Positions 33,342-49,435 of a stretch of 64,000 nt of DNA are shown piece after piece. The position numbers and the translations under genes were made by a program. Below the pieces are notes generated by a model that was not told the origin of the DNA, searched no databases, and saw nothing but the letters and a program-made list of their open reading frames with translations. The stretch is from the NCBI RefSeq assembly GCF_001969445.1, contig NZ_CP017297.1:3720001-3784000 (forward strand). The letters are read 5' to 3'. The first letter of the stretch is position 1. The number at the start of each line of letters is the position of its first letter. This stretch comes from Brachybacterium sp. P6-10-X1 (lineage in GTDB: Bacteria; Actinomycetota; Actinomycetes; Actinomycetales; Dermabacteraceae).

Positions 33342-33400
33342 GATGCGGCCCGCTGCCTGCGCCCGCGGCCCCTGGCCCGCAGACCGCAGCCTGCTGCCGG

Positions 33401-33961
33401 TCAGCCGGCGAGCAGGTGCTCCGGGATGGCCTCGCGCCCCTCGACCTCCGCGATCAACGACCGATCGATGGTCGACCCGCGACGGACGACGGTGAGGTTG
33501 CCGCGCGTCTCGAGGATCACGAGCTCGGCCTCGCCCAGGTCGAGCACTCCGTGGGAGCGCAACAGTTCCCACAGATTCCGCTGCGTGAGGTGGACCCGGT
33601 GCAGCCCGGAGGGCATCGGCCGTCCTCCGATCATCAGGACCGTCGGCCGTCGACGTGGCAGCGGGTGCGGCAGCTTGCGCATCGTCCCCAGCAGGTACTC
33701 CATGACCATCAGCGTGTTCAGCACGATCAGCGCACCCAGCATGGTCGGCGCCTCGCCGAGGGTGGCGCGCGCGGTGACCCCGCCGATCACGGCGAGCACC
33801 GCGAAGCTGCCGACGGTGGGGTTCGCCATCAGGCGCGGGCCCGACAGATGCATGAGCAGCGCGAAGAACAGGTACAGCACGATGGTGGAGACCACCACGC
33901 CCAGCGCTCCGCTCCAGCTGATGCCGATGTAGTCCCGCCACACGATGTCCCAGTCGATCAT
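33401..33961 (-). CDS. DUF421 (YetF-type) membrane protein
   Basis: The 186-residue protein has three N-terminal membrane helices (about residues 15-95) and a small cytoplasmic C-terminal DUF421 domain (TVLMIGGRPMPSGLHRVHLT and onward). The role of this family is unsettled; Bacillus homologues affect spore and germinant-related processes. It converges with the NAT gene. CACAAT lies 6 nt before ATG 33961, a leaderless-type -10. Confidence 0.85.
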   Translation of the reverse strand: MIDWDIVWRDYIGISWSGALGVVVSTIVLYLFFALLMHLSGPRLMANPTVGSFAVLAVIGGVTARATLGEAPTMLGALIVLNTLMVMEYLLGTMRKLPHPLPRRRPTVLMIGGRPMPSGLHRVHLTQRNLWELLRSHGVLDLGEAELVILETRGNLTVVRRGSTIDRSLIAEVEGREAIPEHLLAG

Positions 33962-33997
33962 CGCTCCATTGTGGCGTGTCGCCGGTGCCCGGCCTCG

Positions 33998-34915
33998 TCA
34001 GCCCTCCTCGATCAGCGCCCGGAACGCGACCTCTGCCGCCTCGGCGACGAGCCGGTCGTCGTACTCGGCGTCCGGAGCGTCGCGATGCGACATCACCGCG
34101 ATCACGATCGGGGCGCGATCGCCCGACGGCCAGGCGATGCCCAGATCATTGCGGGTGCCGTAGGCGGCGGCACCGGACTTGCTGCCGACCTCCCACCCGT
34201 CGAGCGCCCCCGCCATGATCAGCGTGTCCCCCGTGGTCGTCGTGGTGAGCATCTCGGTCAGCAGCTCGCTCCGGTCGGCGTCGAGCACGCCGTCGAGCAC
34301 GAATGCCTGCAGGGACGTCGCCAGGGCACGCGGGGTGCTGGTGTCGCGGACATCGCCGGGGGAGACCTCGTTGAGCTCCGGCTCCCAGCGGTCCACGCTC
34401 GTGGTGCGATCGCCGATCGCCCGCAGCGCGGCCTCGAGTCCCGCGGGGCCGCCGAGCTGGGCGAGGAGCAGATTGCCCGCGGTGTTGTCGCTGTAGCGCA
34501 CGGCGGCGTCCGCCACCTCGCGGAGGGTGACCGTGCTCCCGACCTGCTCCTGCAGGATGGGCGAATACTCGACGAGGTCCTCCGCCTCCACCGGGATGGG
34601 AATCTCCAGATCAGGTGCCGAGTCGAGCACTGCAGCGGCAGCCAGGGCCTTGAGGGTCGAGGCGTGGCCGAATCGTTCGTCGGCCCGGTGCTCGATGCGC
34701 GTACCGCTGCCCGTGTCGAGAGCGAACAGGCCGAGGGTGGCGGAGAAGCGGCTCTCGAGAGCGGAGAACGCAGCGTCGGGGGAGGCCGGCCCGCCGGTGG
34801 CGGGCTCAGGGGCGGCGGCGTCCGCCGACTCGCGGCCCGCGGCGGCGGCGCAGCCGGTGAGCGCAAGCGGTGCGGCGGACAGGATGACGGTGCGGCGGGA
34901 GACGGATGTCGTCAT
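33998..34915 (-). CDS. Class A beta-lactamase, predicted Tat-exported lipoprotein
   Basis: The 305-residue protein has all the class A motifs: STLK with S86 as nucleophile and K89, SDN, the omega-loop EPELNE with the general base Glu, and KSG in place of the commoner KTG. The signal peptide has R7-R8 and a lipobox ending at C22, so it should be Tat-exported and membrane-anchored. It probably hydrolyses penicillins, though no activity can be proven from sequence. AGGAGG is five bases before ATG 34915. It shares the strand with the SDR gene upstream (29 bp gap). Confidence 0.88.
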   Translation of the reverse strand: MTTSVSRRTVILSAAPLALTGCAAAAGRESADAAAPEPATGGPASPDAAFSALESRFSATLGLFALDTGSGTRIEHRADERFGHASTLKALAAAAVLDSAPDLEIPIPVEAEDLVEYSPILQEQVGSTVTLREVADAAVRYSDNTAGNLLLAQLGGPAGLEAALRAIGDRTTSVDRWEPELNEVSPGDVRDTSTPRALATSLQAFVLDGVLDADRSELLTEMLTTTTTGDTLIMAGALDGWEVGSKSGAAAYGTRNDLGIAWPSGDRAPIVIAVMSHRDAPDAEYDDRLVAEAAEVAFRALIEEG

Positions 34916-34944
34916 GGGGACCTCCTCAGGTCGTGGTGTGAGTG

Positions 34945-35706
34945 TCAGGGGCGCAGGTGCGAGGCGCCGTTCAGATCCAGCACCGCGCCCGAGGCCCACT
35001 GCGCCCCGGGCGAGGTGAGGTAGACGATCGCGGCGGCGACCTCCTCGGCGGTGCCCACCCGCCCGAAAGGGCTCTGAGAGCGCACGTCATCGCCTGCCTC
35101 GCTGTCGAGCTTCGGCTGCTGGCGCTCGGTGGCGATGAACCCGGGAGCGACCGACGCCACCGCGATCCCGAGCGGGGCCAGGGACAAGGCGAGGGACTGG
35201 CCGAGAGCGTGCAGCCCCGCCTTCGCCGCGGCATACGCGGGCGCGCCGGGCTCTCCGCGGAAGGCTCCGCGGGATCCGACGTTCACGATCACCCCCGGGG
35301 CGTCGCGGGCGATGAGGGAACGGGCCACCAGGTAGCTGACGTTCGCCGGGGCGGTGAGGTCCACGTCGATCATCCGGGTGAAGCGCTGCTGCCAGGTGGC
35401 GTAGTCCGTCGCCTCCACGGGGTGGTCCGTGGACTCCCCGGGTGCGATCCCGGCATTGTTGACCAGCACGTCGATCTGCCCCAGCCCCGCCTCGGCCTCG
35501 GAGACCACGCGCCGGGCGGTCTCGGGGTCGGCGAGGTCCCCGCCGACGAGCACATGGCCCTCGCCGGAGAGCCGTGCCAGGGTCTCCTCGGCATCGGCCC
35601 TGTTCGCGGCGTAGTGGACCGCGACGCGCTCGCCGCGCTCGCTCAGCGCGATCGCCGTCGCCCGGCCGATGCCGCGGGAGGCCCCCGTGACCAGTGCGCA
35701 TCTCAT
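34945..35706 (-). CDS. SDR family oxidoreductase (FabG-like)
   Basis: The 253-residue protein is a classical SDR with TGASRGIGRA at residues 7-16, NNAG after strand four, the catalytic YAAAK and a C-terminal SGAVLDLNGA strand. ATG 35706 has AAAGGA about ten bases upstream; a nearer ATG is out of frame and stops after three codons. The beta-lactamase gene follows on the same strand. The substrate is unknown. Confidence 0.87.
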   Translation of the reverse strand: MRCALVTGASRGIGRATAIALSERGERVAVHYAANRADAEETLARLSGEGHVLVGGDLADPETARRVVSEAEAGLGQIDVLVNNAGIAPGESTDHPVEATDYATWQQRFTRMIDVDLTAPANVSYLVARSLIARDAPGVIVNVGSRGAFRGEPGAPAYAAAKAGLHALGQSLALSLAPLGIAVASVAPGFIATERQQPKLDSEAGDDVRSQSPFGRVGTAEEVAAAIVYLTSPGAQWASGAVLDLNGASHLRP

Positions 35707-36009
35707 GCGTTCATGTCCTTTCGTGGCGAGTCCCCATGGCGAATCCGATGCCGGACATCGTCCAGCTTGCCGCACCGAAGGGGCCGAGCGGGACAACGCG
35801 AGGTGGCCTACAGGGGTCGGGTCCGACGCACGGGGGATCGAGAGTGTCATTCCTGGCGCCTCCGGGCGGCGCGAGGCGCCCGGATCGACGCTCTCGATCC
35901 TCACGTCCGGCCGCACTCCGTGCGTCCTCCCCGCCGGTGAGCTCTTCGCCGAGGAGGTGCTGGCTGAGAGGATCGGGGCATCGCACCTGCCAGGACAGGA
36001 GACGCTGCC
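35707..36009. other. 303-bp divergent gap holding a nested palindrome
   Basis: No gene is evident. The gap between the SDR and the sugar dehydrogenase is dominated by the nested inverted repeat at 35825-35926. Only the ribosome-binding sites of the two flanking genes are otherwise recognisable. Confidence 0.5.
35825..35926. repeat. Nested inverted repeat between divergent genes
   Basis: Three arm pairs are nested: GACGCACGG (35825-35833) with CCGTGCGTC (35918-35926); GATCGAGAGTGTC (35836-35848) with GACGCTCTCGATC (35887-35899, one G-T pair); and TCCGGGCG (35861-35868) with CGCCCGGA (35877-35884). The right side carries about 18 extra unpaired bases between its outer and middle arms. Confidence 0.75.
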
Positions 36010-37083
36010 GTGATCACTCGACGACGCTTCACCGCCTCGGCCGGCGCGCTCGCCGGCGCGTCCCTCCTCGGCTCCTGCGGCCGGCCGCGCACGGATCCGC
36101 CACCCGAGGAGAGCTCGCAGGCGTCGGGCGCTCAAGCCCTGGCCTCTGTGATCACCACCGGCCTGCAGGCGCCCTGGTCGATCGCGTTCGTCGGCGAGAG
36201 CGCATTGATCAGCGAACGCGACTCCGCCCGGATCCTCGAGCTCACCGCCGACGGCACCACCCGCGAGGTCGGCGTGATCGACGGCGTCGACCCCGGGGGA
36301 GAGGGCGGCCTGCTCGGCCTGGCTGTGCACGAGGGTCAGCTGTTCACCTATCTCACGGCTGCCGAGAGCAATCGGATCGAGCGCCGCGAGCTGACCGGAT
36401 CCCCCGGTGGCTTCGGGCTCGGCACTGCCCGGACCGTGCTCGAGGGCATCCCGTCGGCACGGATCCACAACGGTGGCCGCCTCGCGATAGGGCCGGACGA
36501 CATGCTGTACGCGACCACCGGCGACGCGGGGGATCGCGACAGCGCCCAGGACCTCGACTCCCTCGGCGGGAAGATCCTGCGGATGGCGCCCGACGGGACG
36601 GCACCGGCCGACAATCCCTTCCCCGACTCGCTGGTCCACAGCTACGGGCACCGCAACTGCCAGGGGATCGCCTGGGACGAGGAGGGCACGATGTATGCCA
36701 GCGAGTTCGGACAGGACACCTGGGACGAGCTGAATCTCATCGAGCCCGGCGGCAATTACGGCTGGCCGCATGTCGAGGGCATCGCCGAGCAGGAGGGCTA
36801 CCGCGATCCGCTGCAGCAGTGGGAGCCGGCCGAGGCCAGTCCCAGCGGCATCGCGATCACCGGTCGAAACCTCTACCTCGCGAACCTCCGTGGCCGACGC
36901 CTGCGCGTGGTGCCGTTGCCGGACCCGTCGACCGCGTCGGAGCTGCTGGTCGGGGAGTACGGGCGGCTGCGCGACGTGGTCCTCGCGCCCGACGGCTCGC
37001 TCTGGGTGCTGACCAACACCACCGACGGCCGCGGCGACCCGGCCGAGGAGGGGGATCGGATTCTGCGGGTGGCGGTGGAATGA
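36010..37083 (+). CDS. PQQ-dependent sugar dehydrogenase (glucose/sorbosone dehydrogenase family) lipoprotein
   Basis: The 357-residue precursor has an R4-R5-R6 Tat-like start and a lipobox Cys at C23, followed by a six-bladed beta-propeller of the GSDH (PF07995) family. Signature blocks include LQAPWSIAFVGES, HNGGRLAIGPDDMLYATTGD, SYGHRNCQGIAWD and EFGQDTWDELNLI. Soluble glucose dehydrogenase homologues use PQQ and Ca2+ to oxidise aldoses outside the membrane. GGAGA precedes GTG 36010. No PQQ synthesis genes are nearby. A hairpin follows the stop. Confidence 0.88.
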   Translation: MITRRRFTASAGALAGASLLGSCGRPRTDPPPEESSQASGAQALASVITTGLQAPWSIAFVGESALISERDSARILELTADGTTREVGVIDGVDPGGEGGLLGLAVHEGQLFTYLTAAESNRIERRELTGSPGGFGLGTARTVLEGIPSARIHNGGRLAIGPDDMLYATTGDAGDRDSAQDLDSLGGKILRMAPDGTAPADNPFPDSLVHSYGHRNCQGIAWDEEGTMYASEFGQDTWDELNLIEPGGNYGWPHVEGIAEQEGYRDPLQQWEPAEASPSGIAITGRNLYLANLRGRRLRVVPLPDPSTASELLVGEYGRLRDVVLAPDGSLWVLTNTTDGRGDPAEEGDRILRVAVE

Positions 37084-37101
37084 GCCGCTGAGAAATACTG
37101 G

Positions 37102-37124
37102 GCACATCGCACGAGAGGATGTGC
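37102..37124. terminator. Hairpin after the sugar dehydrogenase gene
   Basis: GCACATC (37102-37108) and GATGTGC (37118-37124) form a 7-bp stem between two convergent genes. It may serve the plus-strand gene and possibly both. Confidence 0.45.
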
Positions 37125-37232
37125 GGGTGTGCGTTCTTCTCTGCGCGGCCGTCGGACGGGCGTGCCGGAAGCAGCACCCGGGCGGGAGGGGCGCCCCGGC
37201 AGCCGTGAGCGGCCGAGCTGAGGGACTGGGTG

Positions 37233-37610
37233 CTATCGCTTCGGGTCCGCGCCGGGGTCGTCATCGGTCCTCAGGAGGTCGCGGATCGAGGCCCGGAACG
37301 TCGACGTGACCTTGAGCGGGACCTCCTGATCGACCACGCCGTGATGACCCAGCCGGAGGGTGAGCACGGTTCCGGTCGGGGTCGTCGCGGTGCGGACGTC
37401 GAGGATCTCCGCGGCCGCCTCCGGGCCCACCAGGATCTCATCGCCCTCGATCGTGAGTGCTTCTCCCGCCCGCAGCTGCAACCCGTGCGCGGAGCACACG
37501 TCGAAGACGTGATCATTGGATTCGAACCACTCCTGGGGCCGTGAGCCGCACCCTCGGACCTCGCAGCGACGGGGGAACGCCTCGGCGTGCTCTCTGGCTC
37601 CGTAGCGCAT
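37233..37610 (-). CDS. Hypothetical protein with a Cys/His cluster
   Basis: The 125-residue product has RCEVRGCGSRPQEWFE and DVCSAHG: three Cys and a His that could form a zinc site, followed by a beta-rich domain. I do not recognise the family. ATG 37610 has GGAG a few bases upstream; a GTG at 37718 would add 36 poorly conserved-looking residues. It converges with the sugar dehydrogenase. Confidence 0.6.
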   Translation of the reverse strand: MRYGAREHAEAFPRRCEVRGCGSRPQEWFESNDHVFDVCSAHGLQLRAGEALTIEGDEILVGPEAAAEILDVRTATTPTGTVLTLRLGHHGVVDQEVPLKVTSTFRASIRDLLRTDDDPGADPKR

Positions 37611-37997
37611 GATCTCAGCTCCCTCCGACTCCACGGTAGGCACGCGACAGCATCCCGCCCAAGGCTCCCGACCAGTCGGACGATCCCGTCCCGCGGCCCT
37701 CGCACGGTCTGCTCCCACGGGGCGCGCGTCCAGGCCGGATCCGCGCTGTCCGTCCGCTCGCCGACGACGTGATCCGAGATCGCATCGAAGGCCGCGGTCC
37801 CCTCCGCGTGGAGGGGCAGGGAGGGTGCTGCGGCGTTCTCATCGATCCGTCCCGGCCGGCCGGTGCCCGGGATCGGCACCACCGGCAGGTCGTGGCGTCA
37901 GCCCTGCGGGGGCGATCGCCCGGCGAGGGTGACGGCCCGGCGAGGGCGGCTGCGCGGCGGGGACGTCGGCCCGGAGGACGCCGTCCCCGTGTCGGCG
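37611..37997. other. 387-bp gap without a confident gene
   Basis: On the minus strand a frame from GTG 37882 to about 37650 reads like plausible protein (AFDAISDHVVGERTDSADPA), but it continues into the next gene in a different frame and has no ribosome-binding site. It may be the remains of a gene. Nothing else is visible. Confidence 0.35.
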
Positions 37998-38210
37998 TCA
38001 GTCGGTCCTGTCCTTGTTCCCGAACATGCCCTCGGCCGCGCCCTTGACGGTGTCGCGGGCGTCCTGGGCCTTGTCCTTCAGCGCGGCCTTGCCCTGCTCG
38101 GCCCGACCCTCGGCCTGGGTCTCCTTGTCGTCGGTCAGCTTGCCGAAACCCTCCTTGGCCTGGCCGCTCACCGTGTCCTTGACGTTCTCGAACTTCTCTT
38201 CGTTGCTCAT
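37998..38210 (-). CDS. CsbD family stress-response protein
   Basis: The 70-residue, highly charged protein matches the CsbD family (MSNEEKFENVKDTVSGQAKE, then KLTDDKETQAEG), small general-stress proteins of unknown mechanism. CAGGAG precedes ATG 38210, and TATGCT on the minus strand (38259-38264) is a possible -10. The leader can form an ACGGGA/TCCCGT hairpin. It is separated from aconitase by 149 bp on the same strand. Confidence 0.9.
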   Translation of the reverse strand: MSNEEKFENVKDTVSGQAKEGFGKLTDDKETQAEGRAEQGKAALKDKAQDARDTVKGAAEGMFGNKDRTD

Positions 38211-38359
38211 CGGTGTCTCCTGGCGATGACGGGATCACACGAATCGTCCCGTGGGGCGAGCATACGACCCGGTGTCGCCCCAGGGCCCGGACTCCGACCT
38301 CCCGGTCGGGAGCGGGGCGTGCTCCGCCGTCGCGGATCCTGCGGCCGCCGCCGCGCCCC

Positions 38360-40303
38360 TCACATCTCCTGCGCGGCCAGCGGGATCCGGCCGCCGGCGA
38401 GGATCATGTCGACCTGCCGCGGCGAGAGATCATGATGCAGACCCACCTCGCGGCCGCCGATCGTCGCGGTGATCTGCCGCCCGGCGCGCAGCGCCTCGTG
38501 GATCCCGCCGAGGACCACCTCGTCGCCCTGCGTGCACCGGCCGTGGTCAGCAGGATCGTCGAACGCGAGGCCGAGGATCCCGAAGTTGGCGAGGTTCTGC
38601 CAGTGGATCCGTGCGAAGGAGGTCGCGATCACCGCGCGCAGCCCCAGGTAGCGCGGGGCGATCACGGCGTGCTCGCGGGAGGAGCCCTGCCCGTAGTTCT
38701 CCCCGGCGATCACCACATGCCCGTCCGTCGCCTCGCGGGCCCGCTGCGGGTAGGTCTCATCGAGCCGGGTGAACGAGAACTCGGCGATCTTGGGGATGTT
38801 GCTGCGGAAGGGCAGCACCCGGGAGCCGGCCGGCATGATCTCGTCGGTGGAGACGTTGTCGCCCATCACCAGCAGCGCCGGCACCCTCAGATCGTCCTCG
38901 ACGGGCGAGAAGTCCGGGAGCTTCGAGATGTTCGGCCCCTTGACAAGCTCGACCTTCGCGGCCTCCTCGGGCGGCAGCGGCGGCAGCAGCATGTCGTCCA
39001 CCGTCGAGTAGAACTCGGGCATGGTGGGTCGCGGGTAGACGAGGTCGTGGCTGGTCTCCAGCGTGCGCGGATCGGTGATCTTCCCGGTCAGGGCCGCGGC
39101 CGCGGCGGTCTCGGGGGAGCACAGCCAGACGGCGTCCTCCTCCGTGCCGGAGCGGCCGGGGAAGTTGCGCGGCATGGTGCGCAGGGAGTTGCGGCCGGTC
39201 GCGGGGGCCTGCCCCATGCCGATGCAGCCCATGCAGCCGGACTGGTGGATGCGGGCCCCGGCGGTGACCAGCGAGGTGAGCCAGCCGCCGGAGATCAGGT
39301 CGGCGAGGACCTCGCGGGAGGTGGGGTTGATGTCCAGGGAGAGGCCGGCGGCGGTCTGCTGGCCGTCGAGGATCTCTCCGACCACCGCGAAGTCCCGCAG
39401 GCCGGGGTTCGCCGAGGAGCCCACGACCACCTGGGAGACGTCCTCACCGGCCACGGAGGCGACGGTGACGACGTTGCCGGGGGAGGACGGCCTTGCGATC
39501 AGCGGTTCCAGCTGCGAGAGGTCGATGCGCTCGGTGACGTCATAGGTGGCGCCCTCATCGGCCTCCCAGCGCTCGAACTCGTCGGCGCGGCCGACGGCCT
39601 CGAGGTAGGTGCGGGCCGCGTCGTCGGCGGGGAAGACCGTCGCGGTGGCACCCAGCTCGGCGCCCATGTTCGCGATGACGTGGCGGTCCATCGCGGTCAG
39701 CTGCTTCAGCCCCTCACCGTGGTACTCGATGATGCGGCCGACGCCGCCCTTGACGCCGTGGCGACGCAGCATCTCCAGCACCACGTCCTTGGCGCTGACC
39801 CAGTCCGGCAGCGACCCGGTCAGCTCCACGCCCCAGATCTCCGGGGTCGAGACGTACAGCGGCTGGCCGGCCATCGCCATCGCGATCTCGAGGCCGCCGA
39901 CGCCGATCGCGAGCATCCCCAGCGCACCGGCTGCGCAGGTGTGGGAGTCCGAGCCGATCAGCAGAGCGCCGGGACGGCCGAAGTGGGCCTGATGAACGGG
40001 ATGGGAGACGCCGTTGCCGGCCTGGGAGAACCACAGGCCGAAGCGTTGGGCGGCGGACTGCAGGAACAGGTGGTCGTCGGGGTTCTTCTCGTCGGTCTGC
40101 AGGAGGTTGTGATCGACGTACTGGACCGACAGCTCGGTGCGGATCCGGTCCAGGCCCATCGCCTCGAGCTCGAGCATCACCATGGTGCCGGTGGCGTCCT
40201 GGGTGAGGGTCTGGTCGACCCGCAGGCCGACCTCCGAGCCGGGCTCCAGCGATCCTTCGACGAGGTGCTCGGCGATGAGCTTCTGTGCGACGTTGCGTGA
40301 CAC
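38360..40303 (-). CDS. Aconitate hydratase (about 650-residue type)
   Basis: The 647-residue enzyme isomerises citrate and isocitrate with a [4Fe-4S] cluster. The cluster ligands are visible: the first Cys in SDSHTCAAGALGML, and the pair in SGCMGCIGMG. The swivelling C-terminal domain carries AGENYGQGSSREHAV with the substrate-binding Arg. This single-gene 650-residue form is shorter than AcnA or AcnB but has all four domains. AGGAGGG lies 8 nt before GTG 40303. It is divergent from the DAHP synthase leader region. Confidence 0.92.
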   Translation of the reverse strand: MSRNVAQKLIAEHLVEGSLEPGSEVGLRVDQTLTQDATGTMVMLELEAMGLDRIRTELSVQYVDHNLLQTDEKNPDDHLFLQSAAQRFGLWFSQAGNGVSHPVHQAHFGRPGALLIGSDSHTCAAGALGMLAIGVGGLEIAMAMAGQPLYVSTPEIWGVELTGSLPDWVSAKDVVLEMLRRHGVKGGVGRIIEYHGEGLKQLTAMDRHVIANMGAELGATATVFPADDAARTYLEAVGRADEFERWEADEGATYDVTERIDLSQLEPLIARPSSPGNVVTVASVAGEDVSQVVVGSSANPGLRDFAVVGEILDGQQTAAGLSLDINPTSREVLADLISGGWLTSLVTAGARIHQSGCMGCIGMGQAPATGRNSLRTMPRNFPGRSGTEEDAVWLCSPETAAAAALTGKITDPRTLETSHDLVYPRPTMPEFYSTVDDMLLPPLPPEEAAKVELVKGPNISKLPDFSPVEDDLRVPALLVMGDNVSTDEIMPAGSRVLPFRSNIPKIAEFSFTRLDETYPQRAREATDGHVVIAGENYGQGSSREHAVIAPRYLGLRAVIATSFARIHWQNLANFGILGLAFDDPADHGRCTQGDEVVLGGIHEALRAGRQITATIGGREVGLHHDLSPRQVDMILAGGRIPLAAQEM

Positions 40304-40470
40304 GGTCCTGCCCTCCTGACATCGGTGTCCGCCACCGGCCCGGCAGCAGACCTCCTCCCACCGTAGCCGGTCCGGGCGCTGATGCACCGGTGCACGGACC
40401 GACCGCCGCTGGACGCTCGCCGTCACCCGTCGTCATCCGGACGCTCGCCTCGGCGCCGCGGCCCGTGGTG

Positions 40471-40476
40471 TACGGT
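40471..40476 (+). promoter_or_regulatory. -10 element (TACGGT) of the DAHP synthase leader transcript
   Basis: TACGGT is separated by 6 nt from ATG 40483 of the leader peptide, with no ribosome-binding site. Transcription would start at or beside the leader's first codon. Confidence 0.5.
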
Positions 40477-40482
40477 CCCGGC

Positions 40483-40542
40483 ATGAACACCCGTTGGTTT
40501 AGCTATGCGCGGTCGGCCCTGGAGGGGCCGGCGATGCCATAG
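40483..40542 (+). CDS. Leader peptide reading Trp-Phe-Ser-Tyr, upstream of DAHP synthase
   Basis: The 19-residue peptide MNTRWFSYARSALEGPAMP has Trp, Phe and Tyr within four codons. The Phe and Tyr codons are TTT and TAT, which are rare in this GC-rich DNA. Its stop lies in the right arm of a stem that begins at the Tyr codon, and alternative pairings and a terminator-like hairpin follow. This is the standard architecture of ribosome-mediated attenuation. The gene it precedes makes the first intermediate of all three aromatic amino acids. A Phe-reading leader before aroF is known in Corynebacterium glutamicum. Confidence 0.75.
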   Translation: MNTRWFSYARSALEGPAMP

Positions 40543-40590
40543 CGTCACCAACCCCTTCAGAGCCGACAGGGCAGAGCAGATGCTCTGCCC
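40502..40590 (+). promoter_or_regulatory. Attenuator structures of the DAHP synthase leader
   Basis: Three pairings are visible. Stem A: GCTATG (40502-40507) with CATAGC (40538-40543), with an inner GGCCC/GGGCC. Stem B, exclusive with A: CTGGAGGGG (40519-40527) with CCCCTTCAG (40552-40560), nine pairs counting one G-U. Stem C: GGGCAGAGC (40569-40577) with GCTCTGCCC (40582-40590), followed by TT, a candidate terminator. Which stem shields C cannot be decided by eye. Confidence 0.6.
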
Positions 40591-40646
40591 TTCGCCATTC
40601 CCGGCGGGCTCTGCAGCGGGTCCGCCCTGATCCCAGGACAGGACCC

Positions 40647-41870
40647 ATGACAGCTCTCGACACCGCCGTGGTCGCCCGCGCCACGGACGCCGCCCCCGCC
40701 GCAGACGCGACCGCCGCCCCCGCCGCAGACGCGACCGTCGCCGCAGGCGCCCGCACCGCACCGCCTTCCGACGGACCCGCCGTGCCCCCGCAGCGGCCCG
40801 GCACCGCGTCCGACCGTCACATCACGAGCCTCACCGCGCTGCCCACCCCGGCCGAGCTCCTCGCGGACCTGCCCCTGGACCCGGATTTCGCCGAGCTGGT
40901 CTCTGACAGCCGCGAGGCCGTCCGCGCCGTCCTCGAGGGCACGGACGACCGGCTGCTGGTGGTCGTCGGGCCCTGCTCGATCCACGATCCCGAGGCGGGC
41001 CTCGAGTACGCCCGGCTGCTGGCCGCGGCGCAGGCAGAGCTGGGCGAGGACCTGCTGCTGGTGATGCGCACCTACTTCGAGAAGCCGCGCACCACCGTCG
41101 GCTGGAAGGGGCTGATCAACGACCCGCACCTCAACGGCAGCCACGACATCGCCACCGGGCTGCGTCGGGCCCGCGGTTTCCTGCGCGAGGTCACCGCGCT
41201 CGGCCTGCCGTGCGCCACCGAGTTCCTCGAGCCCATCAGCCCGCAGTACATCGCCGACCTCATCAGCTGGGGCGCGATCGGGGCGCGGACCACCGAGAGC
41301 CAGATCCACCGCCAGCTCGCCTCCGGGCTGTCGATGCCGATCGGCTTCAAGAACGGCACCGACGGCGGCATCCAGGTGGCGCTCGATGCTGCTGCGGCGG
41401 CCTCGGCCCCGCAGGCCTTCCTCGGGATCGGGGCCGACGGGCGAGCGAGCCTCGTGGCGACCACCGGGAACCCGGACGTCTCGCTCATCCTGCGCGGCGG
41501 GGCGACCGGCGCGAACTGGGGTCCGGGACCCGTGCGCACCGCCGCCGAGCGACTGGTCGAGCAGGGCCTCCGCCCGCGCCTGATCATCGACGCCAGCCAC
41601 GGCAACAGCGGCAAGGACCACCTCCGCCAGGCGGAGGTCGCCCGTTCGCTGGCCGACCAGGTCGCCGTCGACGGCGAAGCGGTCGCCGGGATCATGCTCG
41701 AGAGCAACCTCGTCGCCGGTGCCCAGAAGCTCGACGTGGGCGCCGGTCCCGAAGGGCTCGCACACGGTCAATCCGTGACGGATGCGTGCATGGGCTGGGA
41801 GGTCACGGCCGAGGTGCTGCGCGAGCTCGCCGGGGGAGCGCGGCGGCGTCGGGTCGCGGCGGTGAGGTGA
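40647..41870 (+). CDS. 3-deoxy-7-phosphoheptulonate (DAHP) synthase, class I
   Basis: The 407-residue enzyme condenses PEP and erythrose 4-phosphate, the entry step of the shikimate pathway. Family blocks include VVGPCSIHDPEAGLEYA, YFEKPRTTVGWKGLIND, GARTTESQ, GFKNGTDG and DASHGNSGKDH. It is of the AroF/AroG/AroH type. The first 55 residues are an Ala/Pro-rich extension not needed for the fold, part of it encoded by a 24-bp tandem duplication. AGGACAGGA precedes ATG 40647. The upstream leader peptide and attenuator imply control by aromatic aminoacyl-tRNA supply. Confidence 0.93.
   Translation: MTALDTAVVARATDAAPAADATAAPAADATVAAGARTAPPSDGPAVPPQRPGTASDRHITSLTALPTPAELLADLPLDPDFAELVSDSREAVRAVLEGTDDRLLVVVGPCSIHDPEAGLEYARLLAAAQAELGEDLLLVMRTYFEKPRTTVGWKGLINDPHLNGSHDIATGLRRARGFLREVTALGLPCATEFLEPISPQYIADLISWGAIGARTTESQIHRQLASGLSMPIGFKNGTDGGIQVALDAAAAASAPQAFLGIGADGRASLVATTGNPDVSLILRGGATGANWGPGPVRTAAERLVEQGLRPRLIIDASHGNSGKDHLRQAEVARSLADQVAVDGEAVAGIMLESNLVAGAQKLDVGAGPEGLAHGQSVTDACMGWEVTAEVLRELAGGARRRRVAAVR
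40689..40736 (+). repeat. 24-bp perfect tandem duplication inside the DAHP synthase gene
   Basis: Units 40689-40712 and 40713-40736 are identical and encode the repeated peptide AAPAADAT in the N-terminal tail. The length keeps the frame. Confidence 0.85.
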
Positions 41871-41903
41871 TCGCGGGGACCTGGCGGGTACGCACCGCAG
41901 AAG

Positions 41904-41960
41904 AGGGACGCGAGCGGCACGACGTGACACCAGGCGATGGCTCGTGCCGCTGACGTCCCT
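41904..41960. terminator. Bidirectional terminator between convergent genes
   Basis: AGGGACG (41904-41910) pairs with CGTCCCT (41954-41960), and GCGGCACGA (41914-41922) pairs with TCGTGCCGC (41942-41950). The 16 paired bases lie between the DAHP synthase gene and the convergent phosphotransferase gene and could stop transcription from both sides. Confidence 0.65.
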
Positions 41961-41992
41961 GATGTGCTGCCCGAAGAGCGCGTCGGGCCGCT

Positions 41993-42889
41993 TCAGCCCG
42001 CCCGGCGCAGCGTGCGCGTGATCGTCTCCCGCACCCGGCCGGCCATCCCGGGGCCGTCGACGGGGGGGCGGCCGGCCACCTGGAGCGGGATGAACTCGGG
42101 CCAGTTCGGGCCGAAGTTCAGCAGGCGCTGAAGGTCGCACGCCGGGTCGACCCTCGCCCCGGCCAGATCCTCGTAGTCGTCGAGGAACCACATCGCGGCG
42201 TCGGCGGAGAACAGCACGGCGAGGTTGAGCCGGCAATGGCCCACGTCCAGCCCACGGTCCGCGAGGCCGACGGTGGGCCAGTCCACCACCGACGAGATGC
42301 TCCCGCCCTGCCAGAGCACGTTGAAGTGCTGGTAGTCGCCGTGGCTGAGCACGGCACAGGCAGGATCGGCGGGCCGAGCGGCGAGTTCGCGGGCGGTGCG
42401 GGCGAGCCCCGGGTCGCCGCCTTGCTCCAGCCAGGACAGCTCGGAGGACGCCCACAGCTCGCAGGGGCCGAGCACCGGCGCCGGCACCGCGTGGATCCGC
42501 GCCAGCATCGCGGCGAGCCGTCGCACCCAGGCCCGCAGATCGAGCGGAGCGAGCTCCACCCGCCCGGGCAGGAAGCGGGTCAGCGTGGTCGGCAGCCCGG
42601 AAGCGGTTCCCTCGGGGTCGGCGGCGATCAGGGAAGGGATCGGCAGACCGGCATCGGCCAGGGCGTCCAGCCCGGCGGTCTCACGGCGGACCATGTCGTG
42701 CTGCCAGCTCCCGTCCCCGGACCAGCGCCGCACGACGACGTCACCGCGACCGTCCACGCGCCGCACCTGCAGCATCTGCCCGGTGATACCGCCGACCAGC
42801 GAACGCACCAGCGTGACCTCGCCGACGAACGGGGAGAGCCAGGCGCGCAGCGCAGGGTCGAGGTCCGAGGCACCGGAGGTCGGGGGCAT
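41993..42889 (-). CDS. Aminoglycoside phosphotransferase-family (APH) kinase-like protein
   Basis: The 298-residue protein has a kinase fold: VVVRRWSGDGSWQHDMVRRE with the ATP-binding Arg/Lys region, the catalytic loop LSHGDYQHFNVLW and the metal Asp in VVDWPTVGLADRGLD. The family phosphorylates small alcohols, including choline, homoserine, fructosamines and macrolides, and drug resistance cannot be assumed. ATG 42889 is the first plausible start; no ribosome-binding site is clear. It ends at the bidirectional terminator. Confidence 0.82.
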   Translation of the reverse strand: MPPTSGASDLDPALRAWLSPFVGEVTLVRSLVGGITGQMLQVRRVDGRGDVVVRRWSGDGSWQHDMVRRETAGLDALADAGLPIPSLIAADPEGTASGLPTTLTRFLPGRVELAPLDLRAWVRRLAAMLARIHAVPAPVLGPCELWASSELSWLEQGGDPGLARTARELAARPADPACAVLSHGDYQHFNVLWQGGSISSVVDWPTVGLADRGLDVGHCRLNLAVLFSADAAMWFLDDYEDLAGARVDPACDLQRLLNFGPNWPEFIPLQVAGRPPVDGPGMAGRVRETITRTLRRAG

Positions 42890-43042
42890 GCGGCAGAGAC
42901 TGTCAGAGGGGTCCGAAGGGCTCAACCGGATTCCGGGACCTCGGTGAGCTCGTCCGGGCAGGATCTGTCCTCGCGTCTTTCTACGGTGGGTGCACACAGC
43001 GGCCCCGGCATCGGGCCGCGACATCTCTGGAGACGGGTCCCC

Positions 43043-43189
43043 GTGACCGCATCCTTGTCCGTCGTCACCCTGTACCGCGATCCTGTGGAGGCTGTGCGCT
43101 GGCTCGTCGAGGCCTTCGACGTCGAGGTGCTCGACTGCGAAGGACATCAGCGGTCGGTGGGCAGTTGCCGGCCCGGCCAGCCCTGGTGA
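43043..43189 (+). pseudogene. Truncated VOC (glyoxalase/PhnB-like) protein fragment
   Basis: From GTG 43043, with GGAG upstream, the product reads VTASLSVVTLYRDPVEAVRW then LVEAFDVEVLDCEGH: the first strand and helix of a VOC domain. It loses similarity and stops after 48 residues. A complete VOC protein needs about 120. The rest is not found in any frame of the 93 bp before the next gene, so this is a 5' remnant. Confidence 0.6.
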
Positions 43190-43261
43190 GGGAATAACGC
43201 AGCGCACGGGGACGTTGACAAGCGGTCCGCGCAGGATCCGCCACCGCTCCCAGGAGAATCC

Positions 43262-43927
43262 ATCACCGAGCACACCGCACTCATGAGCTCGTCCGCCGTC
43301 GCCCTTCCGGCTCTCGCCGTGCAGGCAGAGCGGCTCATAGATCTCGATGTCCATTCCCTCGCCGGCCTCTTCGAGGAGACGGTGCGGGCGGCCGTCGCAC
43401 AGTGGGGGAGCGAGCGCACCGACGTGCTGCTCGCGCTCGACCCGGCGCTCGCGCCGCCGTCGGCCCTGGCTCCTCTGCTGCGGCGCGGCGACAGGCCTGG
43501 TTTCGTGGTCGAGGACATGACCGACGTGGACCGCTTCGCCCCTACCGGCATCGAGCTGGGCGGCGAGGCGATCTATCTCGTCGAAGGGCTCGAGCGCGGG
43601 GACGACTTCGAGAACACCTCGCCCGCGGAGGCGCTCGTCGAGATCGCCTCCCGCAAGCGCACCCCGCTGCTGCTGAGCGAGGGCATCCACTGGGTGCTGC
43701 AGCAGCCGGAGATCCTCGAGCGCAATCACTGCTTCATGACCATCGGCTCGCGGCTGACGAAGCCGACCGGGAAGCTCGACTCCCGCACCCCGGCGCTGTG
43801 GATCTCCAACGGCACCGGGCGCGACGGGAAGGACCGCAAGGACGCCCCGAAGCTCGGATGGTGCTGGTGGAACAACCGCCACACCTGGCTCGGCATCGCC
43901 TCGACCGCGGGACGCACCGCCGCGTGA
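43262..43927 (+). CDS. DUF5701 family protein, possible non-standard ATC start
   Basis: The protein (214 residues from ATG 43283, 221 from 43262) belongs to the actinobacterial DUF5701 family, of unknown function. Conserved blocks include PLLLSEGIHWVLQQPEILER, CFMTIGSR and KLGWCWWNNRHTWLGIAS. The only good ribosome-binding site, AGGAG at 43252-43256, is 5 nt before an in-frame ATC (43262) followed by ACC GAG, whereas ATG 43283 has none. Either ATC is used, or an original ATG has mutated and initiation occurs downstream with reduced efficiency. The stop codon lies in a 35-bp tandem duplication. Confidence 0.75.
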   Translation: MTEHTALMSSSAVALPALAVQAERLIDLDVHSLAGLFEETVRAAVAQWGSERTDVLLALDPALAPPSALAPLLRRGDRPGFVVEDMTDVDRFAPTGIELGGEAIYLVEGLERGDDFENTSPAEALVEIASRKRTPLLLSEGIHWVLQQPEILERNHCFMTIGSRLTKPTGKLDSRTPALWISNGTGRDGKDRKDAPKLGWCWWNNRHTWLGIASTAGRTAA

Positions 43928-43992
43928 CGGACCGCGGCGCCCTGGCCTGCACCGCCGCGTGACGGACCGCGGCGCCCTGGCCTGCACCGCCG
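43916..43992 (+). repeat. 35-bp perfect tandem duplication at the DUF5701 stop codon
   Basis: Units 43916-43950 and 43951-43985 are identical and an 8-bp start of a third follows. The first unit contains the TGA stop of the DUF5701 gene. Confidence 0.85.
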
Positions 43993-44325
43993 CTCGGCCA
44001 CCCCGCCCCAGCCCGCCGCAGAGCTCGGTCTGCCCAGGGGCGTTGAGGGCCGGGTGCGCCGCTTCGAGCTCTGCGGGGTCGTTGCCAAGGCTGGTTGTGC
44101 GCACGGCAACGCAGATCTCGGTCGTCCCCGGTGCTTCCGGGCTGACCCCGCACGGGGCCGGCGGCCTGTAAGTCGTCCCCGCTCTCCCGCGCATCGCCCT
44201 CGTCGGTTACGGTGACCTCAATCGCGCGCGACGAGGACGCGAAAGGCGACCAGCGGGGCACGTCCCGTCGGCCCCTGCTCGTGGCCCCGTCGTGGACCCT
44301 TCCCCACCCCCGACAGGACAGCCCC
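43928..44325. other. 398-bp gap before cstA
   Basis: It holds the tandem duplication just described. TACGGT (44208-44213) is a likely -10 for the cstA operon, giving a leader of about 105 nt. The stretch 43993-44200 shows nothing I can name. Confidence 0.45.
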
Positions 44326-46038
44326 GTGAACTCCCTGATCCTCGCAGTGGTCGGCGTCGGCATGATGATCGCCGGCTACCTGCTGTACAGCCGCTTCCTC
44401 GCCCGGCGCGTCTACCGGCTCGACGCCGCCTTCCGCACCCCGTCCCACGAGCTGTCCGACGGCGTCGACTACGTCCCCACCAACAAGTTCATCCTCTGGG
44501 GCCACCACTTCACCTCGGTCGCCGGCGCCGCGCCCATCGTCGGCCCCGCCGTCGCGGTGATCTGGGGCTGGCTGCCCGCCTTCCTCTGGGTCACGCTCGG
44601 CACGGTCTTCTTCGCCGGCATGCACGACCTCGGCGCCTTGTGGGCGTCGGTGCGCAACCGCGGGCAGTCCATCGGCGCGCTGTCGGCCCGCTACATCGGC
44701 GCCCGCGGCAGCCGGCTGTTCCTGGTGGTCATCTTCCTGCTGCTGCTCATGGTCAATGCCGCCTTCGCGGTGGTCATCGCGGGCCTGCTGGTCTCCACCC
44801 CCACGGCGGTCATCCCCACCTGGGGTGCGCTCGTGGTGGCGGTGCTCATCGGCCAGGCGATCTATCGCCTGAAGTGGAATCTGCCGCTGGTCTCGATCGT
44901 CGGCGTGGCGGCTCTGTACGGGCTGATCCTGCTGGGCGACCGCCTCCCGGTGGTGCTGCCGGACTCGGTGCTGGGCCTGTCGCCGGAGGCGTTCTGGATC
45001 ATCGTGCTGTTCATCTACGCCGCGATCGCCTCGACGCTGCCGGTGTGGGTGCTGCTGCAGCCCCGCGACTACATCAACGGCCTGCAGCTGTTCATCGGTC
45101 TGGGCCTGCTGTACGGCTCGGTGCTGATCTTCAGCCCCACGATCGTGGCTCCCGCGGTCAATGCGAACGTCCCCGAGGGGACGCCGGGCATCATGCCGCT
45201 GCTGTTCGTCACCGTGGCCTGCGGCGCCATCTCCGGCTTCCACGGCATCGTCTCCTCCGGGACCTCCGCCAAACAGCTGGACAAGGAGACCGACGCCCGC
45301 TTCGTCGGCTACTTCGGCGCCGTCGGCGAGGGGCTGCTGGCTCTCGGCGCGATCATCGCCACCACGGCCGGGTTCCGCACCCTGGCGGACTGGGAGGAGG
45401 TCTACAGCGCCTTCAACGAGGGCGGCGTCGCGGCGTTCGTCACCGGCGGCGGCTCCATCCTCAACGCGGGCCTGGGGATCCCCACCTCGCTGTCGGCGAC
45501 GATCCTGGCCACCATGGCGGTGCTGTTCGCGGCCACCACCATGGACACCGGCGTGCGCCTGCAGCGCTTCGTCGTCCAGGAGATCGGCGACGTGATCGGC
45601 GTGAAGCTCGGCACCATCGTGGCCACGGCCATCGTGCTGGTGGTGTGCCTGGCGCTCACGTTCAGCGCCGGCGCCGACGGCTCCGGCGGCATGCTCATCT
45701 GGCCGCTGTTCGGCACCACGAACCAGATCATGGCGGGACTGACCCTGGCGATCCTCGCGGTGATGCTGATGCGCAAGCGCCGCCCGGTGCTGCCGATCAT
45801 GATCCCGCTCGTGTTCGTGCTGTTCATCAGCGTGTACGCGCTGATCATCCAGCTGGGCGGATTCCTCGCCGACGGCAACTGGCTGCTGCTGGTCCTCGAC
45901 GTGATCATCCTGATCGCCGCGGTCTGGGTGATCGTCGAGTCCGCGGTCGCGCTGAACCGCGCCCGCATCGCCGACCCCGAGCCCGACGACGAGGACGAGC
46001 GCGACTCGGTGGCTGCCGGCGGGAGCTCCCAGGAGTGA
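44326..46038 (+). CDS. cstA: Carbon starvation protein CstA family transporter
   Basis: The 570-residue membrane protein has about sixteen hydrophobic segments and the CstA (PF02554) hallmarks: DYVPTNKFILWGHHFTSVAG, WVTLGTVFFAGMHDLGALWA and CGAISGFHGIVSSGTSAKQL. CstA proteins take up pyruvate and, in some bacteria, peptides on starvation. This one is of the shorter group. AGGA precedes GTG 44326. The stop overlaps the start of the cory-CC-star gene, which in turn overlaps the ArsA ATPase gene, so three products are co-translated. Confidence 0.9.
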   Translation: MNSLILAVVGVGMMIAGYLLYSRFLARRVYRLDAAFRTPSHELSDGVDYVPTNKFILWGHHFTSVAGAAPIVGPAVAVIWGWLPAFLWVTLGTVFFAGMHDLGALWASVRNRGQSIGALSARYIGARGSRLFLVVIFLLLLMVNAAFAVVIAGLLVSTPTAVIPTWGALVVAVLIGQAIYRLKWNLPLVSIVGVAALYGLILLGDRLPVVLPDSVLGLSPEAFWIIVLFIYAAIASTLPVWVLLQPRDYINGLQLFIGLGLLYGSVLIFSPTIVAPAVNANVPEGTPGIMPLLFVTVACGAISGFHGIVSSGTSAKQLDKETDARFVGYFGAVGEGLLALGAIIATTAGFRTLADWEEVYSAFNEGGVAAFVTGGGSILNAGLGIPTSLSATILATMAVLFAATTMDTGVRLQRFVVQEIGDVIGVKLGTIVATAIVLVVCLALTFSAGADGSGGMLIWPLFGTTNQIMAGLTLAILAVMLMRKRRPVLPIMIPLVFVLFISVYALIIQLGGFLADGNWLLLVLDVIILIAAVWVIVESAVALNRARIADPEPDDEDERDSVAAGGSSQE

Positions 46039-46460
46039 GCCCCGCCCCTCAGCGCCGCCCCGCCGGCGGGTTCCCGGACGACCCGACCGACGGGGCGGCT
46101 CCCCGCCCGGTGGCTCCTGACGGGGTGGCTCCTGACGGGGTGGCTCCCGACGGGGCGGCTCATCCCGGGGGAGCGCCCCGTGCGGAGGCTCCCGGTCCCG
46201 GCCTCCGCGACCGCTGGCGGGCGTTCAGCGCGGGCCTGCACGAGTACTACGTCGGCCCCTACCGGCGCACCTTCGCCAAGGCCCAGCGGGACGAGGACGA
46301 CCTGTTCCGGATGCTGGTCATGTCCGAGATGCTCGGGGTGCCCAACCCCGCGTCCTACTACACGATCGAGTTGCTGCCGGTGCTCTACGACGGCTTCCAC
46401 GACTGGCACCGACGCATGGGCATGGAGCGCTCGCCCCTGGAGAACTACCGATGCTGCTGA
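46035..46460 (+). CDS. cory-CC-star protein (ends in Cys-Cys)
   Basis: The conserved 85-residue core (LHEYYVGPYRRTFAKAQRDE, LPVLYDGFHDWHRRMGMERS) matches the actinobacterial cory-CC-star family, named for its C-terminal Cys-Cys followed directly by the stop. The function is unknown. GTG 46035 overlaps the cstA stop, but the first 50 residues are a Pro/Gly-rich tail including three VAPDG repeats, and a start further downstream is possible. The 3' end overlaps the ATPase gene by 10 bp, so a stable 1:1 partnership is likely. Confidence 0.75.
   Translation: MSPAPQRRPAGGFPDDPTDGAAPRPVAPDGVAPDGVAPDGAAHPGGAPRAEAPGPGLRDRWRAFSAGLHEYYVGPYRRTFAKAQRDEDDLFRMLVMSEMLGVPNPASYYTIELLPVLYDGFHDWHRRMGMERSPLENYRCC
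46111..46155 (+). repeat. 15-bp tandem repeat, three copies, coding VAPDG
   Basis: Units start at 46111, 46126 and 46141; the first two are identical and the third differs by one base. All keep the frame of the cory-CC-star gene. Confidence 0.8.
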
Positions 46461-47539
46461 ACCTCGCCGCCGAGCGCCGCGTGCTGTTCCTGGGCGGCAA
46501 GGGAGGGGTCGGCAAGACCACGGTCGCCTCCGCGCTCGCCCTCGCCGCCGCCCGCGAGGGCCGACGGGCCCTGGTGGTCTCCACCGACCCCGCCCACAAC
46601 CTCGGCCACCTCTGGGACCAGAAGGTCGGCGACCGCCTCGCCCGCCTCGGCGACGGGGCGGGAGGGCGGCTGTCCGGGATCGAGATCGACCCCGACGCGA
46701 CCACCGATCAGCATCTGAAGGACGTGGCCCGGACCCTGCGCAAGCTGATGCCCGAGAACCTCGCGGGCGAGGTCGACAAGCATATGGAGCTCTCCCGCCG
46801 CTCCCCGGGCACCCACGAGGCCGCGGTGCTGGAGCGGATGACGGAGCTGGTCGAGAGCGGCATGGAGCGCTTCGACCTGGTCGTCTTCGACACCGCTCCC
46901 TCCGGGCACACCGCACGGCTGATGGCGCTGCCCGAGCTGATGACCGCCTGGACCGACGGACTGCTGGCCCGGCGGGAGAAGTCCCAGAAGCTCGGCGCGG
47001 CGATGCGCGGGCTCGACGGGGACCGCGGGAAGAAGCTGCTGGGCAGCACGGCCCCGCGCGACCCGGTCGAGGAGCGCGACGAGGAGATCCGATCGATCCT
47101 GTTGCGCCGCCGCGACCGCCTGGCCGGGCTGCGGGAGGTGCTCACCGACCGCGCGAGAACGTCGTTCGCGATCGTGCTGGCCGCCGAGCGACTGCCGGTG
47201 CTGGAGACCATCGCCCTGCACGAGGAGCTGACCCGCACCGGCGTCGACGTCGGCGGCCTCGTGGTCAACAAGCGCTCCCCGGCCGACCGCGGCGACTTCC
47301 TCGCCCGCCGCCACGCCCTCGAGGAGGAGCACCTGGGAACCCTCCGCGCGGCGCTGCCCGAGGTTCCGCTGCAGCAGATCCCGCTGGGGGAGGAGGACGT
47401 CGTCGGCCCCGCCGCCCTGGAACGGTTCGCCGGGCTGCTGGGCACCGCAGACGGCGTCCCGACGGCAGGGGCGCGCGGTGACGGCGGGAGGCCGACGGCG
47501 ACCTCGCGCTCAGACGGGGGAACAGCGCCCGCCGGCTGA
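46451..47539 (+). CDS. ArsA/Get3-family ATPase without cysteines
   Basis: The 362-residue single-domain ATPase has the deviant Walker A GGKGGVGKTT at residues 15-24, the switch segment VVSTDPAHNLGHLWDQKV and VFDTAPSGHTARLM. ArsA proteins power metalloid export through Cys ligands, and Get3 proteins use a CxxC zinc clasp. This protein contains no Cys at all, while its partner upstream ends in Cys-Cys. A disordered tail follows residue 335. ATG 46451 lies inside the cory-CC-star gene. No arsenite permease is nearby, so arsenic resistance is unlikely. Confidence 0.85.
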   Translation: MLLNLAAERRVLFLGGKGGVGKTTVASALALAAAREGRRALVVSTDPAHNLGHLWDQKVGDRLARLGDGAGGRLSGIEIDPDATTDQHLKDVARTLRKLMPENLAGEVDKHMELSRRSPGTHEAAVLERMTELVESGMERFDLVVFDTAPSGHTARLMALPELMTAWTDGLLARREKSQKLGAAMRGLDGDRGKKLLGSTAPRDPVEERDEEIRSILLRRRDRLAGLREVLTDRARTSFAIVLAAERLPVLETIALHEELTRTGVDVGGLVVNKRSPADRGDFLARRHALEEEHLGTLRAALPEVPLQQIPLGEEDVVGPAALERFAGLLGTADGVPTAGARGDGGRPTATSRSDGGTAPAG

Positions 47540-47647
47540 TCATGGCCCGGGCCCCGCCCGCGGCCGACCGGTCAGCACCCTGGACGCCGCACGCATCGGG
47601 ACGGATACTCGGGCCACCGACTCCGATCCGCTCACGGGAGAGCAACC

Positions 47648-48679: not shown

Positions 48680-48721
48680 GGGCTGCGCCGGATCACGCCT
48701 CGGGCCACGACGCCCCTGCGC

Positions 48722-49423: not shown

Positions 49424-49429
49424 CGACCC

Positions 49430-49435
49430 AGCGTA
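49430..49435 (-). promoter_or_regulatory. -10 (TACGCT) of the WYL regulator, leaderless arrangement
   Basis: TACGCT on the minus strand is followed by 6 nt and the ATG at 49423, without a ribosome-binding site. Confidence 0.5.

Follow-up and report, generated by a model that had tools for sequence, protein, structure and literature searches.

An AroR-type leader candidate with mutually exclusive RNA helices upstream of class I DAHP synthase in Brachybacterium and other Actinomycetota

Main Finding

In a Brachybacterium genome, the gene for class I DAHP synthase (DAHPS) is preceded by a short leader ORF with clustered Trp, Phe and Tyr codons and by a series of RNA helices, some of which exclude one another. 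Comparison with related sequences documents the leader, its codons, the spacing of its promoter, the helices with their exclusivity, and the co-occurrence of the whole with the gene. In all likelihood this is an AroR-type leader, in which ribosomes reading aromatic codons would control class I DAHPS. An earlier note, made from the letters of the DNA, had proposed leader-peptide control with exclusive stems; that proposal gains strong support from conservation and covariation, but no simple terminator/antiterminator pair is apparent in the sequence.

The Locus and Its Features

The window, by which we mean the whole 64,000-nucleotide stretch analysed (G000:C1:3720001-3784000), lies within a single-contig 4.39 Mb genome. 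An aconitase-family gene lies upstream of the DAHPS gene on the opposite strand; elsewhere, window positions 43283-43927 (+ strand) encode a DUF5701 protein (PF18959, E 1.4e-83). The features of the locus, in window coordinates, are as follows; percentages refer to cells paired in the alignment described below.

40471-40476, + strand: −10 element TACGGT of the putative leader promoter, TAnnnT spacing kept in relatives
40483-40542, + strand: leader ORF MNTRWFSYARSALEGPAMP, 19 codons, with Trp5 (TGG), Phe6 (TTT) and Tyr8 (TAT)
40493-40498, + strand: P1 5′ strand GTTGGT, on the Arg4-Trp5 codons, partner 40547-40552
40512-40527, + strand: P2 5′ strand, antiterminator-like, putative ON state; 92.3%, three pairs changed on both sides
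40515-40529, + strand: P0 hairpin GGCCC..GGGCC inside the leader ORF, overlapping the P2 5′ strand; 98.1% in 43 sequences, no double changes
40547-40552, + strand: P1 3′ strand ACCAAC, just past the leader stop
40552-40567, + strand: P2 3′ strand, of which 40558-40564 (CAGAGCC) doubles as P3 5′ strand
40568-40591, + strand: P4 hairpin, terminator-like, without U-run; nine-pair main stem 99.7%, four double-change pairs
40593-40606, + strand: P5 hairpin, CGCC (40593-40596) with GGCG (40603-40606), right after P4; 98.8%, no double change
40603-40611, + strand: P6 5′ strand GGCGGGCTC, excluding P3 and P5; 98.7%, one double change
40607-40613, + strand: P3 3′ strand GGCTCTG, pairing with 40558-40564 as alternative to P2, putative OFF state; six-pair core 99.2%, one double change
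40618-40626, + strand: P6 3′ strand GGGTCCGCC, of which 40618-40623 (GGGTCC) doubles as P7 5′ strand
40635-40643, + strand: DAHPS Shine-Dalgarno (SD) region AGGACAGGA, with an AGGA/GGAG/GAGG core in 39 of 43 aligned relatives
40641-40646, + strand: P7 3′ strand GGACCC, overlapping the DAHPS SD region; 88.2%, no column-wise double change
40647-41870, + strand: class I DAHPS, 407 aa, the putatively controlled gene (PF00793 DAHP_synth_1, E 5.4e-81; TIGR00034 aroFGH, 449.9 bits, cut-off 173.2)

The earlier note had argued that sensing all three aromatic amino acids with one leader would be economical for a single DAHP synthase. This argument fails because the genome carries two such enzymes, the second being a class II synthase encoded at G000:C1:364122-365411. 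Class II DAHPS is in fact encoded in all 38 genomes examined from the genus, whereas class I is encoded in only 20 of them.

Leader Peptide, Codon Usage and Promoter

A 19-codon leader containing TGG, TTT and TAT had been noticed before and was confirmed here, the three lying at codons 5, 6 and 8; a short ORF with clustered aromatic codons directly 5′ of class I DAHPS is what would be expected of an AroR-type leader. The suggestion that its Phe and Tyr codons are of a disfavoured kind is likewise borne out by codon counts. Across the five window ORFs treated as genes, TTT occurs 0 times vs 61 for TTC, and TAT five times vs 30 for TAC, whereas in the first ten codons of 43 aligned leaders the preference is reversed (TTT 35 vs TTC 5; TAT 66 vs TAC 1).

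All 43 relatives have a TAnnnT box that ends 6-7 nt (9 nt in one case) 5′ of the leader start, a box seen in none of 258 control windows further upstream; an SD core precedes the leader in only one of the 43. This spacing, together with the scarcity of SD cores, suggests that the leader is most likely translated from leaderless RNA, whose 5′ end would coincide with the leader start codon or adjoin it. A scan with the sigma-70 consensus found no promoter-like site at the locus, which is unsurprising because there is no −35 box.

Conservation Within the Genus and the Order

An alignment of upstream regions in relatives, which the earlier note had proposed as a check, was made for 43 loci, from the leader start into the gene (alignment A1). 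It comprises 19 sequences from the genus and 24 others, mostly labelled Arthrobacter, Microbacterium or Sinomonas, with one Sporosarcina and one Avipropionibacterium. Left out of the alignment and of the detector sets described below were L002 and L003, which lie on the contigs of L092 and L095; L100, whose DAHPS gene is truncated by a contig end; L101 (29% identity over part, E 4.7e-4); and L080 (little upstream sequence). The short ORF and its aromatic codons are conserved and several of the stems covary. A leader was found in 43 of 43 sequences, usually reading RW[FY]xY and then A[LP]EGPA. There are exceptions: Trp5 and Phe6 vary within the genus, where RWQFY, RWQVY, RRFIY and RRYAY occur, and Tyr8 is kept in all 19 genus leaders, that of L086 starting one codon later. 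L022 lies on a contig titled Sporosarcina beigongshangi, and its leader peptide matches those of several Arthrobacter loci residue for residue, which may reflect contamination or transfer.

A covariance model (R1), itself built from these 43 sequences, matched 20 of the 38 genus genomes at E 5.6e-29 or better, exactly the 20 that encode class I DAHPS. At E <= 1 the count rose to 22, the two additional genomes matching at E 0.42 and 0.86. Across the order, 48 of 297 genomes matched at E <= 0.01, eight of these from the genus, and the 16 lower-scoring order-level matches that were examined all lie 5′ of class I DAHPS. These are among 20 weak or lower-scoring places, of which three lie 5′ of a tyrosyl-tRNA synthetase gene and one, L165 (E 0.34), next to neither gene. 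In a phylum-wide search of 396 genomes, R1 reached E <= 0.01 in five, two of which gave weak hits.

Range Across Actinomycetota

Because R1 reaches near relatives only, distant members were judged by a script detector. It requires an ORF that contains two or more aromatic codons, a strong hairpin, and a helix in which the second half of the ORF pairs with the bases preceding this hairpin; its thresholds were tuned after Micrococcales sequences had been examined. Its choice of ORF at times takes an upstream start, and in L029 it took a frame other than that of the F-Y-F ORF. The run left out L133-L161 and L206-L210. The detector passed 85 of the 99 class I DAHPS upstream regions counted as Actinomycetota (L022 included), compared with 16 of 990 dinucleotide shuffles of the same 99 regions, one of 39 class I DAHPS upstream regions from other phyla, and none of 31 class II DAHPS upstream regions (30 from the genus and the window genome's own). 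Among 26 loci tested from a phylum-wide draw, 13 passed, six of six from the same class and seven of 20 from other classes, three of these seven sharing identical leaders. The 14 failures are the other 13 loci of that draw, with L221 and L236 having under 250 nt upstream, and L171, whose leader is plain. RFYY-type leaders occur 5′ of class I DAHPS in other classes (L212, L213, L215, L216, L218, L229), some with more aromatic residues upstream. L070, in a Dehalococcoidia MAG, has an ORF (MNTLNGFFYYFWFTDARHREAAS) with seven aromatic codons 5′ of class I DAHPS, followed by a strong hairpin, its helix falling below the detector threshold.

The mixed Trp, Phe and Tyr composition that had been noted in the window is the rule among the 85 detected leaders, 71 of which contain all three residues; eight contain Phe and Tyr, four Trp and Tyr, and two only Tyr, so that Tyr is present in 85 of 85. 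It is extremely improbable that the locus combines a chance ORF with unrelated hairpins. High-GC DNA often contains short ORFs and hairpins, as the shuffles that pass the detector illustrate, but chance is refuted by the conservation of the element, its exact co-occurrence with class I DAHPS, the fixed spacing of the promoter, the codon bias and the covariation.

RNA Helices and Their Exclusivity

The helix 40519-40527 × 40552-40560, described in the earlier note, was recovered as part of the longer conserved P2. P2 is imperfect, with a non-standard pair at column 36 in eight of 43 sequences (C-A in the window) and at column 38 in ten of 43, and with its two lowest pairs non-standard in 13 and 14. 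Taken together, P2, P4 and P6 are paired in 95.9% of the cells of A1, with nine pairs changed on both sides and a covariation score of 0.170, vs 0.118 ± 0.004 in shuffled alignments, which do not preserve relatedness, and at most 0.100 when the helices were slid; further pair types are less exceptional, being reached by 36 of 500 shuffles. The set of P0, P3, P4, P5 and P7 is paired in 97.0% of cells, with six double-change pairs (five in P4, one in P3, none in P0, P5 or P7) and a score of 0.117 vs 0.077 in the same kind of shuffles, 65 of 500 of which reached its further pair types.

Against shuffles, P3 and P1 are weak (z < −2 in 15 of 85 and 16 of 56 sequences, respectively). A partner permutation followed, with 18 representatives chosen from the 43 to cut redundancy; here the number of permutations as low as native, out of 2000, was 0 for P1, P2 and P4, 4 for P7, 5 for P6 and 23 for P3, vs 467-1822 for five non-partner control pairs. 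In L023, the P2 5′, P2 3′ and P3 3′ strands have all changed in concert (CTCCG/CGGAG/CTCCG), a triple change that gives the strongest individual indication of two partners for the P2 3′ strand.

The other stem of the earlier note, 40502-40507 × 40538-40543, joins the Tyr8 codon to the stop codon, and the claim that it excludes P2 is right in topology, as the two interleave. As a conserved element it is kept within the genus and lost outside it. Its five inner pairs are intact in 18 or 19 of the 19 sequences from the genus and the outer pair in one, whereas in the other sequences three of the six pairs are present in 0 of 22, 0 of 22 and three of 24. Over all 43 sequences, 63.4% of cells are paired and both score and percentage exceed 500 of 500 shuffles; the count of double-change pairs does not exceed them. 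The stem was dropped as a family feature, with its pairs confined to the genus and because the Tyr and stop codons alone fix much of its pairing.

Searches of Rfam release 15, T-box included, returned no match to the locus up to E 1 over window positions 30000-50000, where two microRNA matches lie elsewhere and far below cut-off; at gathering score, the window together with L029, L032, L005, L023, L031, L042, L027 and L077 gave only one tRNA, in L042.

A terminator-like hairpin had also been reported after the stems. The hairpin is present as P4, but its reading as a terminator is unsupported: a terminator scan found no terminator-like site at the locus, and the eight bases after the stem contain at most four T in 43 of 43 sequences, with no U-run. 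P2 ends at 40567 and P4 starts at 40568, so the two share no base, and P4 formed at 1.0 in every state of the folding described below; on these grounds a role for P2 as direct antiterminator towards P4 was rejected. So was a helix between the P2 5′ strand and the P4 3′ strand, which showed no permutation excess (1797 of 2000 as low). Because P4 forms in all states, it cannot alone be a regulated terminator, and because it has neither a U-run nor bases in common with P2, the classical trp scheme does not fit.

These observations weigh against, without removing, a classical trp-type transcription attenuator with P2 as antiterminator and P4 as intrinsic terminator, which we regard as a serious possibility, if not the expected outcome. 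High-GC actinobacterial terminators can be without U-runs. P4 covaries and is paired almost throughout, the control codons of the leader overlap the alternative helices as such an attenuator would demand, and C. glutamicum aroR is described in published excerpts as transcriptional attenuation. The lack of a U-run terminator at the locus would also suit Rho-dependent attenuation, in which leader translation and P3 would govern whether Rho can reach the 5′ region and no intrinsic terminator would be involved, and excerpts of the literature suggest Rho control for a region 5′ of actinobacterial cysteine genes; nothing among the present findings is specific to Rho, and such a mechanism seems unlikely.

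Ribosome Position and the Proposed Switch

RNA folding, another check proposed in the earlier note, was run with a masked ribosome of assumed footprint, and the values given are means over 43 sequences. In this modelling, the position of the ribosome selects between two exclusive helix sets. In RNA ending just past P6, a stall at codon 5 or 6 gave P2 at 0.99 and P6 at 0.94-0.95, and a ribosome on codons 9-19 gave P2 at 0, P3 at 0.87 and P6 at 0.10. A stall at Tyr8 gave P2 at 0.96 with the leading edge at nt 31 and 0.48 with it at nt 34.

For the AroR-type leader, we infer ribosome stalling, P2 as the ON state, and what the switch changes, as follows. A ribosome paused at codon 5 or 6, and probably also at codon 8, to await Trp-, Phe- or Tyr-tRNA would sit on the P1 5′ strand and block P1, leaving P2 free to form. 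P2 would then occupy the strand that P3 needs, and the downstream strand could therefore pair as P6. A ribosome that reads on would instead cover the P2 5′ strand, so that P2 would fail and P3 would enclose P4 and P5. P2 should be the ON state, and P3 the OFF state, because starvation should select P2 and the enzyme makes aromatics. The output may be premature termination around P4/P5, the outcome reported for C. glutamicum aroR, release of the DAHPS ribosome-binding site through P6 in place of P7, or both. With no ribosome modelled, P2 had a mean of 0.71 (0.98 in the window), and an untranslated leader would be ON because P2 then dominates. With a ribosome at the stop codon, P2 was still favoured (0.73), so that the OFF state would rest on a mid-leader ribosome or on P0/P1 forming first.

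If the output were translational, the leader ribosome would pick P2 with P6 or P3 with P7, thereby opening or closing the DAHPS ribosome-binding site, and P4 would be only a spacer. P3 and P6 share bases, as do P6 and P7; both P6 and P7 exceed partner permutation; and in the folding, ribosome position decides between P3 and P6 before the SD is transcribed. Precedents in Actinobacteria are, according to excerpts of the respective papers, the LEU element of leuA, in which a leader is combined with SD pairing (PMC1262725), and aroR of C. glutamicum, called a translational regulatory leader in one paper (PMC7356990). However, full-length RNA at equilibrium had the ribosome-binding site open at 0.22-0.31 and P6 at no more than 0.16 in every state; opening of the SD at equilibrium, not seen in any folded state of the full RNA, was set aside, and a translational step would need kinetics because the site stays closed. 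P7 moreover lacks column-wise double changes, and the evidence for P6 and P7 is drawn from the 43 aligned sequences. Such a translational switch is less likely than not.

A Related Leader Before a Tyrosyl-tRNA Synthetase Gene

The three weak R1 matches mentioned above sit 5′ of a second tyrosine--tRNA ligase gene. Strong matches to it (E 2.6e-19 or better) occur in eight of the 38 genus genomes, including that of the window, whose copy scores 249.1 bits with TIGR00234 tyrS (cut-off 113.8). All eight loci (L182-L189) have a short leader ORF, the TAnnnT box and a Tyr codon, followed by a GGCTCTG helix and a P4-like hairpin; in the window genome the Tyr leader (MITRIDYRHGSGTSRGVVRAPRP, L185, G000:C1 about 2513072) has the same layout as the DAHPS leader. 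Seven of the eight fit the pattern (R or H)xDYx(H or Y)GS. No aromatic residue other than Tyr is present in seven, and L187 has one Phe and two Tyr. These leaders were detected with the limit relaxed to one aromatic codon and without a shuffle control. Class I DAHPS is encoded in every one of these eight genomes, an overlap with a probability of 0.0026 if the two genes were distributed independently; shared ancestry may account for it.

A wider reading, offered tentatively and as less likely than not, is that of a family spanning Actinomycetota, in which one leaderless ORF would read three aromatic amino acids and a relay of P2/P3 and then P6/P7 around a fixed hairpin would lead to the ribosome-binding site in place of a terminator/antiterminator pair, and the second tyrosyl-tRNA synthetase would be controlled by the same framework, in most cases carrying one Tyr codon only.

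Relation to Known Systems

Neshat and colleagues reportedly described, in 2014, the AroR leader and attenuator of aroF in Corynebacterium glutamicum. AroR-aroF is the closest known case, and it answers the earlier note, which could not place a mixed leader at this enzyme. Excerpts of the literature on this system report a Phe-Tyr-Phe leader before aroF, with a leader attenuator found by sRNA-seq (PMC4046766), an increase of aroF transcription under Phe limitation, Tyr availability being without effect (PMC11802643), and the replacement of aroR to relieve what the authors term translational control by Phe and Tyr (PMC7356990); AroR-aroF is also known from PMC6892785. Like AroR as there described, the leader studied here is short, has aromatic codons and lies directly 5′ of class I DAHPS, and a class II DAHPS is also present in the genome (PF01474 was found in the C. 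glutamicum control genome). Two Corynebacterium loci, L029 (..QRFYFGG..) and L032 (..WRFYFSK..), have an F-Y-F leader and the order leader, P0/P2, P4 as in the window. By contrast, the window leader reads W-F-S-Y and lacks F-Y-F, a motif treated here as a lineage trait and not as defining, given the predominance of leaders with all three residues, and its P4 tail is poorer in U than those of L029 and L032. P1, P3, P6, P7 and the wide range are absent from the excerpts on C. glutamicum AroR, and the absence of a Tyr effect in that species, as excerpted, differs from the constancy of Tyr in the leaders detected here.

Excerpts describing the LEU element of leuA show a leader with the regulatory amino acid, interleaved pseudoknot-like helices and possible SD involvement, as here. 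In that element leucine codons pair with the SD box (PMC1262725), whereas the pairing seen here joins the regulatory codons 4-5 to 40547-40552, just past the leader stop and more than 80 nt 5′ of the SD region, and P4 intervenes.

Enteric trp and phe leaders likewise have control codons and mutually exclusive helices. Unlike them, the present leader has no U-run, three amino acids and not one repeated, and an antiterminator-like helix that shares no bases with the terminator-like hairpin.

The leaderless leader ORFs trpL, leuL and ilvL of Streptomyces lividans lie 5′ of biosynthetic or tRNA-synthetase genes, a likeness to the present case, and no DAHPS or tyrosine leader is among the eight leaders named in excerpts of that study (PMC8079986). 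Excerpts of a 2005 survey of Actinobacteria report no conserved RNA structures 5′ of phenylalanine or tyrosine operons and do not mention aroF or DAHP. In the open-licence literature, the titles and abstract openings among the matches listed contain no such leader in Micrococcales or with Trp, Phe and Tyr. The principle is already known from AroR, and the codon set, RNA architecture and range look like a new variant of it.

Significance

The leader very probably raises the first enzyme of aromatic synthesis when aromatic amino acids run short. What had been an observation in a single species, aroR of C. glutamicum, is extended to a regulatory RNA that is conserved and can be aligned, belonging to the enzyme at which aromatic synthesis begins; its helices form a defined set that can be mutated, and a related Tyr leader lies 5′ of a tRNA synthetase gene. 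The system is a natural setting in which to ask how three amino acids are weighed by a single leader, and whether transcription or translation is the target of actinobacterial leaders that have no U-run terminator. It also bears on the engineering of aromatic production in actinobacteria.
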